Below, piece after piece: positions 17,702-21,733 of a stretch of DNA of 29,354 bases. Source of the DNA: a virus. The position numbers and the translations under genes were made by a program. The notes beneath the pieces are model-generated. The model saw only the letters and a list, made by a program, of their open reading frames with translations. It ran no database searches and was not told the DNA's origin. The stretch's first letter is position 1, and each line of letters starts with the position of its first letter. The stretch covers positions 1-29,354 of the IMG/VR virus record IMGVR_UViG_3300025322_000122, one strand, 5' to 3'.

Positions 17702-18253
17702 TTACAACCACTTCCGCTTGCTGCGCGGAATTGACCGCTGCAGCGCCACTAACCGCGACGCCACCTTGACCAACCGATCCCGCCAGGCCACAGCCTTGTT
17801 TTTGTACGAGGGGGCGAGCATGATCCCGAGCTGAGCATCCGACAGCGCACGCTCATCGCGCGACTGCTGCAAGCAGAACTGAGCCAAAATGTTCAGCTCG
17901 GCCGCTGTCAGCCACCGTTTCACCTCTGCATGCCACCGCAACGGCTGAAACAGCCGGTCAGGTAGTGGGGCCATACCCAACCTCGTCCCCCGCACCCGAT
18001 CGCCGGCATAGTCCTGCGCCCTGGCGTTGCCGTTAAGGGCACCTTCCATGACGGCGTATTGTTCAAGCGCGTCGGCCTGGGCATCGTCCAGCATCTTGTC
18101 GAGCGGCGTGAGGTGGATGTCGCCTGCCTCGATCATTTCCAATCGCACGGCTCGCGGTGTCAGCGGCAGTGCGATACGACGCCGCCAGACCGGCGCCATC
18201 GGCGTTGCGAGATTGGTACGAATGCACGAATGCTGTTTACGCTGCTCTCTCAT
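17702..18253 (-). CDS. Last gene of leftward early operon, function unknown (positional Q analogue)
   Basis: 183 residues from ATG 18253, chosen because GGAAAGGG lies six bases upstream; a longer frame up to 18364 would translate the iteron repeats and is unlikely. The protein is basic at both ends (REQRKQH start, RSKRKWL end), with a helical middle (LDKMLDDAQADALEQYAVM) and a C-terminal HTH-like stretch (LTAAELNILAQFCLQQ; DAQLGIMLAPSYKNKAVAWRDRLVKVASRL). I do not recognise the family. It is the last early gene before the late promoter, where lambdoid phages carry the antiterminator Q, so a late-gene activator is a reasonable but unproven guess. Confidence 0.65.
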   Translation of the reverse strand: MREQRKQHSCIRTNLATPMAPVWRRRIALPLTPRAVRLEMIEAGDIHLTPLDKMLDDAQADALEQYAVMEGALNGNARAQDYAGDRVRGTRLGMAPLPDRLFQPLRWHAEVKRWLTAAELNILAQFCLQQSRDERALSDAQLGIMLAPSYKNKAVAWRDRLVKVASRLVALQRSIPRSKRKWL

Positions 18254-18269
18254 CGCCAACCCTTTCCAA

Positions 18270-18452
18270 GTGACCCAGTGACCCAGTGACCCAGTGACCC
18301 ACAGCGATCCCCCCCTCCCCGGACTCTCTATTCTCTTCTTCTTTTTTTTATGATTTAGGGTCACTAGGGGTCACTGGGTCACTGCCACACCTAAAACTGT
18401 TGCTCACCACCACATTTTGACAGTGACCTCCCCAGTGACCTCCCCAGTGACC
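18270..18452. repeat. Iteron cluster, candidate replication origin
   Basis: Ten copies of the core GTGACC/GGTCAC: four direct 8-bp units (GTGACCCA at 18270-18301), three inverted units (GGGTCACT at 18358, 18368 and 18376), and three direct units with 12-bp period (CAGTGACC at 18421, 18433 and 18445). A pyrimidine-rich stretch (about 18308-18349) lies between the first two groups. It sits next to the replication-protein gene, as iteron origins usually do. Confidence 0.72.
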
Positions 18453-18453
18453 C

Positions 18454-19650
18454 CTACACCTTTTTCCACCAATTCTTGCCGTTTGATCGCTGAGCCATGT
18501 GCCAGCCCGCTTTCTTCATGCATCGAGTGACCCTATCAATCACCCGCTGGTCGAGCTTATCGGCCTTGATCTCAAGGGCGCCCGCAGCAACGGCAGCGAT
18601 AGTCGTACGGTAGTCATCTATCCCTGGCAGCCTCTTATCCTTCGCTTCGCTTTCCAGCCAACTCGCGACCAAGTGCTCCCATTCGTCCACCGGCGTTCTC
18701 AGGGCTTGCTCCTGGCCTGCTGCTGCCCACAGATGACGCGGCAGACGAATACTTTCGTCAGCGTCTTCGCAAAGCGCCGCCTCCGCCCACAGCTGGTCAC
18801 GATCGCGAGTCAGCCTTACGATGTCGAATTGTTCGATTGCAACTGGCCAGAAACGGCGGTTTCCAGTTGTTGACAGCAGATAGTTGTCCTCGTTTGTGCT
18901 GCCAACAAATATGCACTGACGCTGAAAATGCGTTGTCTCTTCTTTGTATTTCAGCGTTGATGAATCGACGCGCCGCGATAGAAACTTTTTCAACGTCGTT
19001 ACATCGGCCCGGCGCATGCCATCCAGATCGGCACATTCCACGATCCATTTGCCGCGCAGCTGCTCGATAACCTCCCGAGGCTTTTCAGTCAGGGGAGCTT
19101 CGTCGGTAAACCACGCTTCGCCGGCCAGCACGAGAAACGCAGTGGATTTGTTCCGTCCCTCTGGGCTTTCCAGAACAACCATCTCATCGAATTTACAACC
19201 CGGCTGTCGCACGCGTCGCACCGCTGCCATCAGGCAAATACGCCCAACCGCCCGCACAAATTCGGTGTCTTTGGCGCCCCCATAGCTAATCAGCCACGTG
19301 TTGAGACGCTCGACGCCGTCCCATCGCAAGCTGACACTGGCGAGATAGTCACGCACCGGATGGAACCGCGCGCGTCGGGCCGCCGCTTTTATGATGCGCC
19401 TGAAATCGACGATTGCCAGTTTGAGATAGTATTCGCGCGCGATCAGCAGATAGAGCTCGTCAACGGCATCGTCATCAAGCCTCGGGCCATAGCCTTCGAG
19501 TCCCTCGATGCGATATTCCCCTCCGAACTCGTCGTATCGCAAAACAACACCTGCCCAGGCCAGTGCCTTGAGCAGATTGCCTTCGGATTTCAACAGCCGC
19601 CCTTCGCGGTCCCGCTCCAGCTCGTCATAGGGATGCTTGTTATCCAACAT
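18454..19650 (-). CDS. VapE-type replication helicase/ATPase
   Basis: 398 residues. The virulence-associated-E domain is shown by a FHPVRDYLASVSLRWDGVERLNTWL block at about residues 96-120, the P-loop ESPEGRNKST at 161-170 (lacking the usual second glycine), a Walker B-like WIVECADLD at 202-210 and KKFLSRRVDSSTLKYKEE, then FVGSTNEDNYL and NRRFWPV. These are the sensor-type motifs of the family, related to SF3 helicases. VapE proteins act as phage/PICI replication initiators or helicases and often recognise iterons; the adjacent iteron cluster supports this. The N-terminal DNA-binding domain before residue 90 is not a full primase, so priming may come from the host. Confidence 0.82.
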   Translation of the reverse strand: MLDNKHPYDELERDREGRLLKSEGNLLKALAWAGVVLRYDEFGGEYRIEGLEGYGPRLDDDAVDELYLLIAREYYLKLAIVDFRRIIKAAARRARFHPVRDYLASVSLRWDGVERLNTWLISYGGAKDTEFVRAVGRICLMAAVRRVRQPGCKFDEMVVLESPEGRNKSTAFLVLAGEAWFTDEAPLTEKPREVIEQLRGKWIVECADLDGMRRADVTTLKKFLSRRVDSSTLKYKEETTHFQRQCIFVGSTNEDNYLLSTTGNRRFWPVAIEQFDIVRLTRDRDQLWAEAALCEDADESIRLPRHLWAAAGQEQALRTPVDEWEHLVASWLESEAKDKRLPGIDDYRTTIAAVAAGALEIKADKLDQRVIDRVTRCMKKAGWHMAQRSNGKNWWKKV

Positions 19651-19921
19651 CCGCGCCGCTCTTTGGAGTGAGGCTCCACGTATCGCCTGGCCTGGTGCCG
19701 ATATCGAAGACGGTCGGAATGCCCAGCTCCTGCAACGCCATCAGCGCTTGCTTCGGCGTAATCAGGCCGTGTCGCAGGGATACCCCGATTGCAGCGATAT
19801 CGGCCTCAAGGAGCCGCGCGCGGATCAGTGCCGCACGCAACGAGGCAAGAAGCGCCTCACGAAGAGGATCGCCGGTCCTCGTATTCGCTGCTTGTGGCGG
19901 GCCGTCGCGCTCTTGCGCCAT
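19640..19921 (-). CDS. Small protein of unknown function between SSB and VapE genes
   Basis: 93 residues from ATG 19921; an upstream TTG/GTG is possible. It starts with a hydrophilic segment (AQERDGPPQAANTRTG), then a helical REALLASLRAALIRARLLEAD and IAAIGVSLRHGLITPKQALMAL. A GLITPKQALMALQELGI stretch could form a small helical domain, possibly helix-turn-helix. The end overlaps the VapE gene start by 11 bases. The function is unknown; an accessory to replication is a contextual guess. Confidence 0.6.
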   Translation of the reverse strand: MAQERDGPPQAANTRTGDPLREALLASLRAALIRARLLEADIAAIGVSLRHGLITPKQALMALQELGIPTVFDIGTRPGDTWSLTPKSGADVG

Positions 19922-19929
19922 GTGCACAC

Positions 19930-20340
19930 TCAAAATGGTATGGGATCATCGAACGGCAATGGCGCGTTTACATCCGCGTTAGTCTTGGTCTTGGCCGGCG
20001 CCTCGCCCTTCGGGGATCGAGGCTTCTTTGGGCGTTTCGCTCCGATCAATCCCAGCGGCTGGATCACCGACGCCACAACGCTCAAACCGCTCCGCGGGCC
20101 GTCTGGGGCGTCCCAGCTCCGGAGCTTGATCTTGCCCTCCACATAAACCTGAGTGGAGGCGGACAACTGCGGCACCAGCTCGCCGATGTGCCCCAGAAAC
20201 GCGGCGACCTGCACCCACTGCTGGTCTGGCTCTTCACCGACCACCACCGAAAAGCTGAGCCATTCGCGGCCCGACTTCGCCGTGCGGAGCTGGGCATCCC
20301 GGCCGACCGTGCCCGTAAACGCTGCCTCTATCCCCTTCAC
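19930..20340 (-). CDS. ssb: Single-stranded DNA-binding protein
   Basis: 136 residues starting at GTG 20340, which overlaps the TGA of the GcrA-like gene (GTGA), so the two are translationally coupled. An OB-fold is clear: GIEAAFTGTVGRDAQLRTAKSGREWLSFSVVV, then WVQVAAF, and VYVEGKIKLRSWDAPDG. The C-terminus ends in the acidic tip FDDPIPF, the docking tail to which partner proteins of SSB bind. The family is certain. It would coat single-stranded phage DNA during VapE-driven replication and could help the RecT/exonuclease pathway. Confidence 0.92.
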   Translation of the reverse strand: MKGIEAAFTGTVGRDAQLRTAKSGREWLSFSVVVGEEPDQQWVQVAAFLGHIGELVPQLSASTQVYVEGKIKLRSWDAPDGPRSGLSVVASVIQPLGLIGAKRPKKPRSPKGEAPAKTKTNADVNAPLPFDDPIPF

Positions 20341-20852
20341 CTCACACCCGCCTTCACGGCCAAGCGCTTCGGCGGGCGTATCGACACGTGCTGATGATGC
20401 GCGCAATAGGACTTCCCTGAGAGCCGCTGTGCACCGCAATAGAGATACGGCCCCCCATCATTTACCGGCCAGCGGCATTGATGACGGCCACGTTTTTCGA
20501 GCGTCACCAGCTGGCTGCCAGGAATGTCCGGCATAACGGCGGGCTCGGGCTTGGGGGCGGGCTCGAGCCCGCGCGGCGTGGCGACAACAGGCGCAGATGG
20601 GGACGGGGACGGCTTCCCCCGGCGTGGCAACGGAACCAGCCTCGGCGGCAGTGGTGGCGTTTCTGCCCTCACCCGCTGCCGTAGTAGGGGAAGCTTCATG
20701 ATCGGCTTGGGCAATTTGAGCCGATGCACCTTTCCTATGATAGCATTGCGTGAGTATCCCAGGCGTTCACCGACCATTGAGGCCGAGTACCCCTCCGCCC
20801 ATAACGTCTTCAGGCGCGCGATCTTTTGCGCAGGCCAGCTATCTGTCGTCAT
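20337..20852 (-). CDS. GcrA-like cell-cycle regulator
   Basis: 171 residues from ATG 20852, like the 173 residues of Caulobacter GcrA. The N-terminal helix-turn-helix has KIARLKTLWAEGYSASMVG (10-28) and RLGYSRNAIIGKVHRLKL (30-47), the core GcrA pattern. The C-terminal part has CRWPV (126-130), YLYCG (136-140) and GKSYCAHH (146-153), as in GcrA proteins. GcrA, with sigma70, activates genes at GANTC sites methylated by CcrM. A phage copy may tune its own early or late promoters to the host cell cycle, or redirect host transcription. The middle linker is Pro-rich. Confidence 0.85.
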   Translation of the reverse strand: MTTDSWPAQKIARLKTLWAEGYSASMVGERLGYSRNAIIGKVHRLKLPKPIMKLPLLRQRVRAETPPLPPRLVPLPRRGKPSPSPSAPVVATPRGLEPAPKPEPAVMPDIPGSQLVTLEKRGRHQCRWPVNDGGPYLYCGAQRLSGKSYCAHHQHVSIRPPKRLAVKAGVR

Positions 20853-21495
20853 TGACCCCATCCCGCCGCGACGTGGCAAATAGCCCAAACCGCCGCATTG
20901 CGCTGCCCACTGCATCAACGGATTCCCCCAGATACGCCGCGATCCGCGCCGCGCTCATGCCCTGCCGCGATAATGCAGCTATACGCCGTTGCCGTGTCAC
21001 GCCCCACCGGGCAGGCCGCCCGCTGGGAGTGCCCTTGATGCCATGCCGTCGGCAAACGCTTCTCACCCCTTCGTAACTGAGGCCCAACTTGTGCGCCATT
21101 TGCGCGATACTGAACCCTTCAGCACGCATAGCGTTTATGGCGCCTAAATACTTTCCCGCCCTGCCGCGCCTAGCAAATGCTGGCAATTCCGGCAGATAGC
21201 GCAAGCGACAATAATGCAACTGGTTGCCCGTGAGGCCTGTCTCTTGTTCTGTTTGGAGTCTCGTCATGCCGGCCAGCAGGCAGGTCCGGACACTGTCGAT
21301 CCTCTCGGCCGGCCAAATCGAACTTTCCCGCGGGCGGTTGCTGCGGTTACCGCTGCGCATGCATGCCCAACAGCGTGGCTCATATCGCCCTCCGTTAGGA
21401 TTCTGACATTTGCGCCAACGGAATTCAGATGGCGGTTTGACCCGGCCACATTCCGCGCAACGCCGGGCTGTGTTGTGGATGTCAGACATCACCAT
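20839..21495 (-). CDS. Zinc-ribbon plus triple helix-turn-helix protein
   Basis: 218 residues from ATG 21495 (GGAGG site upstream; the next Met at 21489 is an alternative). Cys13/Cys16 and Cys42/Cys45 form a zinc ribbon (RRCAECGRVK, PRCWACMRSG). Three helix-turn-helix-like segments follow at about 64-101 (ERIDSVRTCLLAGMTRL), 119-153 (AINAMRAEGFSIAQMA, then YEGVRSVCRRHGI) and 170-204 (RIAALSRQGMSAARIAAYLG). Each resembles the GcrA/homeodomain-like fold. It probably binds DNA; its start overlaps the upstream gene by 14 bases and its end overlaps the GcrA-like start. I do not know a named family with this order. Confidence 0.72.
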   Translation of the reverse strand: MVMSDIHNTARRCAECGRVKPPSEFRWRKCQNPNGGRYEPRCWACMRSGNRSNRPRESSIWPAERIDSVRTCLLAGMTRLQTEQETGLTGNQLHYCRLRYLPELPAFARRGRAGKYLGAINAMRAEGFSIAQMAHKLGLSYEGVRSVCRRHGIKGTPSGRPARWGVTRQRRIAALSRQGMSAARIAAYLGESVDAVGSAMRRFGLFATSRRDGVNDDR

Positions 21496-21733
21496 CTGTC
21501 TCACCCTCCACGCTTCCACGCGGCCGCCAGGCGCAACACCACCAATCTTCGCCAACGGGCGGGAAACAGCTTTGCACGACAGGAACTTGCGGATGCACCC
21601 CCGTAGACACGATACTCTGCGGTTGAGCCATGCCGACGCAAATCAGCATCGGAGGATTGGCGCGGCATACGCCGTCGTGCATCCTCATGTATTGTTCCGA
21701 AGCATACGCTCCGCATTCTTTACATTTTCGCAT
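21482..21733 (-). CDS. Small Cys-rich protein, function unknown
   Basis: 83 residues from ATG 21733; an AAGG ribosome-binding site precedes it within the stop region of the Cro-like gene. Cysteines lie in KCKECGAY at the N-terminus, then at HDGVCRANPP, with further Cys in the WWCCAW segment near residue 70. The first part (KCKECGAYASEQYMRMHDGVC) resembles a C2HC-type finger. It may bind zinc and act as regulator, but no family could be named. The gene is the second of the leftward early operon. Confidence 0.58.
   Translation of the reverse strand: MRKCKECGAYASEQYMRMHDGVCRANPPMLICVGMAQPQSIVSTGVHPQVPVVQSCFPPVGEDWWCCAWRPRGSVEGETDGDV

Follow-up and report, generated by a model that had tools for sequence, protein, structure and literature searches.

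The DNA analyzed is the IMG/VR record IMGVR_UViG_3300025322_000122 (29,354 bp; hereafter the window). Genes for a terminase, head and connector proteins, an integrase, RecT, and a repressor are found in the record, and the element is therefore assigned as a temperate tailed phage or prophage. The head genes recognized are those for a head protease/major head protein and for head closure, in addition to the gene for the terminase large subunit. The gene vapE (18454-19650, minus strand) encodes a VapE-type AAA+/SF3-like helicase of 398 amino acids in a frame of 428 codons, which is proposed as the initiator. The protein matches PF05272 (E = 5.6e-65) and no other of the helicase families compared. 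A gene for a single-strand binding protein (19930-20439, minus strand; PF00436, E = 6.6e-10) lies upstream of vapE. Homologues of a GcrA-like cell-cycle regulator and of an HNH/HTH-like protein are encoded in the early region at 20337-20918 and 20839-21555, respectively, both on the minus strand; the GcrA-like gene fits an alphaproteobacterial host. The next gene downstream of vapE (17702-18253, minus strand) has no Pfam or PHROGs match, and a related gene is present in L141, the locus with the best full-length VapE match (50% identical). No primase was recognized among the window genes searched.

An array of 10 GTGACC units at 18269-18453 fills the 200-bp intergenic region that runs from the vapE stop codon (18454) to the ATG of the next gene (18253). 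The units start at 18270, 18278, 18286, 18294, 18423, 18435, and 18447 on the plus strand and at 18359, 18369, and 18377 on the minus strand. These coordinates bear out the original prediction, in which ten such units were placed here as four direct, three inverted, and three direct copies with periods of 8, 8/10, and 12 bp; the measured spacings are 8,8,8 / 10,8 / 12,12. Most of the ten units are exact copies of AGTGACCC, which occurs nine times in the window, always within 18269-18533. Inner array 1 (18269-18300, plus strand) consists of four AGTGACCC units with an 8-bp period. Inner array 2 (18358-18383, minus strand) consists of three AGTGACCC units with spacings of 10 and 8 bp and faces inner array 1. 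The outer array (18422-18453, plus strand) consists of three AGTGACC(T/C) units with a 12-bp period and is separated from inner array 2 by a spacer of conserved length (18384-18421; 46 bp from unit start to unit start). An eleventh unit, an exact AGTGACCC that the original prediction had missed, lies within the 3' end of vapE (18526-18533, plus strand).

The array is the best 183-bp stretch of the window, with 10 copies of one 6-mer. In 100 first-order shuffles of the window the maximal number of copies of a 6-mer per 183 bp has a mean of 4.2 and a highest value of 5, and the window outside the array holds at most 4 copies of any 6-mer per 183 bp. Chance is thus ruled out as the source of the array. 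No match to the array region was obtained in a DNA-level search of phage and plasmid collections.

The centre between the facing inner arrays (18302-18357) is 79% pyrimidine, as expected from the pyrimidine-rich tract that had been described as interrupting the units, and is the proposed unwinding element. AT pairs make up 80% of its right half (18328-18357). The 40-bp stretch of the centre with the lowest calculated duplex stability begins at 18326 and ranks among the least stable 0.22% of the window. The facing iteron sets at 18269-18300 and 18358-18383 thus flank an AT-rich, putative melting region, an arrangement shared with the origins of PICIs and SaPIs. A change of GC skew had been suggested as a check on an origin at this site. 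The cumulative GC skew declines as far as about 22-23 kb and increases from there on, with its minimum located where the coding strand switches; no shift appears at 18.3 kb, so the skew lends no support to an origin at the array.

The structure of VapE was modeled with a mean pLDDT of 90. The model aligns end to end (residues 5-398) with PriRep1 in complex with dsDNA (7pds), with a Z score of 32.3 and an rmsd of 3.1 Å over 378 residues, and the sequence profile of VapE matches PriRep1 of 7pds with an E value of 1.4e-83. The next fold matches are NrS-1, the SaPI5 primase-helicase, and the pox D5 helicases, with Z scores of 11-14. Residues 345-398, encoded at 18457-18618 on the minus strand, have the secondary structure helix-helix-strand-strand of a winged helix in the model, and this C-terminal part is proposed as the repeat-binding domain. 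The 398-residue protein has no primase domain; the relative in L141 is encoded by a frame of 729 codons.

The region 3' of vapE was compared in 216 VapE relatives collected from virus and genome contigs. Together with the window these provide 217 loci, 198 of which have enough downstream sequence. An array was scored when one 6-mer occurred five or more times in the 450-bp tile directly 3' of vapE. Arrays are detected in this tile in 53% of the 198 loci, versus approximately 3% of other 450-bp tiles, and the tile is strictly the best of its locus in 103 loci. Among 54 further, previously unseen loci an array appears in 50%, compared with an average of approximately 5% elsewhere. For both sets taken together (252 VapE loci), an array is found in about half of the loci and in about 3-5% of other tiles; with this detector, no array is found in the remaining half or so. 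Eighteen annotated phage records chosen to cover diverse hosts were also examined; 17 carry VapE, and one, that of Streptococcus phage Sfi21, has a D5-type cousin helicase. In 11 of the 18 records, Sfi21 among them, no other tile equals the one 3' of the helicase gene, and the hosts of these 11 include Marinobacter, Corynebacterium, Bacteroides, Acutalibacter, Yersinia, Brevibacillus, Pasteurella, and Gardnerella. The arrays 3' of vapE thus span several bacterial phyla and unrelated gene contexts.

The letters of the core vary by lineage. GTGACC in the window is replaced by CTGCAC in L141 and by GTTCC, GTAAC, GGCAAC, GGACA, and others elsewhere. A 9-column EM motif finder gave excessively high null scores and was set aside. 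The spacing of units on the same strand peaks at 9 bp across the arrays, followed by 10, 8, and 12 bp. Facing pairs of tandem sets were identified 75 times in 65 loci, and the centre is AT-enriched over its own locus in 71 of these 75 pairs, by a mean of 13.7 percentage points. A signature was defined as an outer unit, a gap of 38-48 bp, an inner tandem set with a period of 7-10 bp, and a centre of 55-115 bp. It is present in 41 of 123 distinct arrays, versus a mean of 3.8 and a maximum of 10 when the order of gaps is shuffled within arrays, a significance that is somewhat optimistic because the signature was defined after the arrays had been inspected. A chance pattern is unlikely, since the members come from several bacterial phyla. 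The window bears the signature as 12,12 / 46 / 8,10 / 65 / 8,8,8. The mixed periods had originally been regarded as odd; their recurrence across arrays identifies them instead as the conserved part.

A sister phage (L221) carries blocks that are 86%, 69%, 73%, and 92% identical to the window on both sides of a segment (18209-19915) within which there is no similarity. This segment, replaced as one cassette, comprises vapE, the array, and the open reading frame at 19640-19933. The downstream gene at 17702-18253 (92% conserved), the single-strand binding protein gene, and the upstream regulators are kept. PF05272 has no match in the 36.9-kb L221 record, which is possibly a fragment. A gene for a helicase with DnaB_N and AAA_25 domains is found in place of vapE (L221, 3188-4980). 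The 3' end of that gene and the region downstream contain an array of their own, with 6-7 copies of ACCGAC/CGACAC (CCGACAC units), so that the plan of a helicase gene with a 3' array is seen again with an unrelated ATPase. Because vapE and the array are replaced together, in this one case, the array is tied to vapE and not to the neighbors that are kept. The product of gene 17702-18253 was rejected as the cognate binder of the repeats, because the gene is 92% conserved in L221 despite the different array there. The exchange suggests, from this single sequence comparison, that phages may change replication specificity by swapping the initiator and the origin together.

The L221 exchange also bears on whether the repeats could be operators that bind a transcription regulator, such as the GcrA-like or HTH proteins encoded upstream, and control the downstream genes. 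The array does immediately precede the start codon of gene 17702-18253, and regulator genes are encoded nearby. However, L221 retains these regulators and the downstream gene, yet the GTGACC array is gone along with vapE. Within the window the GTGACC core clusters at the array and nowhere else, scans for promoters and terminators gave nothing notable at the array, and arrays 3' of vapE also occur in the unrelated gene contexts noted above. An operator function is thus very unlikely.

Co-variation of the core with the protein was analyzed among array pairs with ATPase domains that are at least 60% identical. In these pairs the sharing of a core tracks the identity of the winged helix, given the identity of the ATPase (r = 0.17; permutation p = 0.016). 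In the reverse test of ATPase identity, given winged-helix identity, no association was obtained with the same close pairs (r = 0.04; p = 0.32). Columns 345-398 of VapE, taken as a group, show a stronger association with core sharing than the other columns (permutation p = 0.0005). When core distance was compared with protein distance over the whole, very divergent set in a wide Mantel test, the winged helix did not stand out from the ATPase. The co-variation is therefore moderate evidence, because the effect is not specific over all distances.

The closest parallel is with phage-inducible chromosomal islands. The origins of PICIs contain an AT-rich region flanked by two sets of iterons (PMC6092414). 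A plasmid carrying a PICI rep-ori replicates only with rep, and removal of the ori strongly lowers the number of colonies (PMC6092414). Rep-ori replicons of SaPIs have likewise been demonstrated by experiment (reviewed in PMC7581432). The window resembles the SaPI/PICI Rep-ori in that the array lies immediately 3' of the gene for the initiator helicase and in that two iteron sets surround an AT-rich region. As with the SaPI/PICI Rep, VapE is an AAA+ helicase with a predicted C-terminal DNA-binding domain, and it has the PriRep1 fold over 378 residues. Unlike these islands, the window has the terminase, head, and connector genes of a tailed temperate phage; its core is GTGACC, and its VapE is without a primase domain. 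The module is thus of the PICI type, but the element is not a PICI because phage structural genes are present.

A 302-bp noncoding region in the record of phage Sfi21 (NC_000872) is annotated as origin of replication and phage inhibitory sequence. It immediately follows the phage helicase gene, just as the array follows vapE in the window. Facing AGTTAC/AGTAAC repeats with an 8-bp period are separated by approximately 80 bp of AT-rich DNA, and an outer unit is 45 bp away. The spacings of 7,23,45,8,83,59,7,13 in Sfi21 compare with 12,12,46,8,10,65,8,8,8 in the window, and both carry the signature. The Sfi21 helicase differs in being of the Pox_D5/DUF5906 type (PF03288/PF19263) rather than PF05272; the core is also different, and the DNA is much more AT-rich.

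The isolated C-terminal domain of SCCmec Cch2 binds short repeats directly downstream of cch2 (PMC7581432). Cch2 resembles the window in combining a self-loading helicase with short repeats directly 3' of its gene, an interaction that in the window is only predicted. It differs in having only three AAGTG iterons with no facing sets reported, in belonging to a different helicase subfamily, and in residing in an SCCmec element rather than a phage.

Two other types of origin were rejected. Classical plasmid origins of the RepA/Pi/TrfA type use a winged-helix Rep without a helicase domain and iterons of approximately 17-22 bp with a spacing near two helical turns; the window has 8-bp units with periods of 8-12 bp, and the adjacent gene encodes a helicase. 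In origins of the lambda type the iterons are found within the gene of an O-type initiator; the window array is intergenic, beside vapE, with one unit only inside the gene end. No literature on such arrays in VapE phages was found in a search that covered part of the literature.

It could also be considered that VapE bound to the array acts chiefly as a repressor of its own operon, or that the array serves as an incompatibility or decoy element while replication starts elsewhere. Initiators can be titrated by iteron arrays, and the Sfi21 element is annotated both as an origin and as an inhibitory sequence. However, the array lies downstream of vapE rather than at the vapE promoter, and facing sets around an AT-rich centre are the anatomy expected of an origin, which is functional as such in PICIs (PMC6092414). 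This reading is accordingly held to be very unlikely. Although phage pac and parS sites can be short repeats and terminase genes are present in the same record, a packaging (pac/cos) or partition site that lies beside vapE by chance is exceedingly improbable, since the repeats change along with vapE in L221, changes of the core among relatives parallel those of the VapE winged helix, and the gene for the terminase large subunit is approximately 3 kb from the array.

Judged from sequence, the structure model, and analogy, this temperate phage very probably starts replication at the array, to which its VapE helicase would bind as the cognate protein. Five lines of evidence favor the original prediction of a candidate origin with VapE-binding sites and an unwinding element, with binding itself predicted: recurrence 3' of vapE, facing sets with AT-enriched centres, the geometry shared with Sfi21, PICIs, and SaPIs, co-exchange in L221, and the fold match to a Rep-dsDNA complex. 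The locus is a predicted initiator-plus-3'-origin module of the SaPI/PICI/Sfi21 type in a tailed phage.

The proposed mechanism begins with the C-terminal winged helix of VapE, which is seen in the predicted fold and would bind the GTGACC units. Two VapE assemblies would then load on the facing sets with 8-bp periods, and the outer set, with its 12-bp period approximately 46 bp away, would add sites to one of them. The three inner and three outer sites on that side might, as a guess, serve one hexamer. By analogy with SaPI Rep and SF3 initiators, the AT/pyrimidine-rich centre at 18326-18357 would melt and two helicase rings would unwind the DNA outward. The vapE gene and the array would constitute a single cassette for specificity and be exchanged together, as seen once in L221.

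This kind of origin is known, and the interesting part is the broader pattern of fixed geometry, changing core, and exchange of the module. We lean toward a single origin class for the VapE-type helicases of tailed phages across phyla, in which the core changes with the winged helix and the helicase and origin form an interchangeable cassette. The geometry of the class is an outer 12-bp set, a gap of approximately 44 bp, an inner 8-9-bp set, an AT-rich centre of 60-110 bp, and a second inner set. A layout reported as peculiar to phage-inducible islands is present in roughly half of the VapE loci that were examined, cultured tailed phages included. If the reading of a single origin class is correct, the cassette could determine which co-resident phages and satellites are compatible in replication, and the origins of many uncharacterized phages could be located from sequence. 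More than 100 natural pairs of core and winged helix were collected, which makes a DNA-recognition code for self-loading helicases directly testable.

Marinobacter phage PS3 (L288, 2925-3210) has a distant VapE (35% identical) together with a GTGACC/GGTCACC core. The array of this phage is a near-perfect mirror, with gaps of 23,33,18,80,18,33,23. Convergence of the PS3 core with the GTGACC core of the window is possible.
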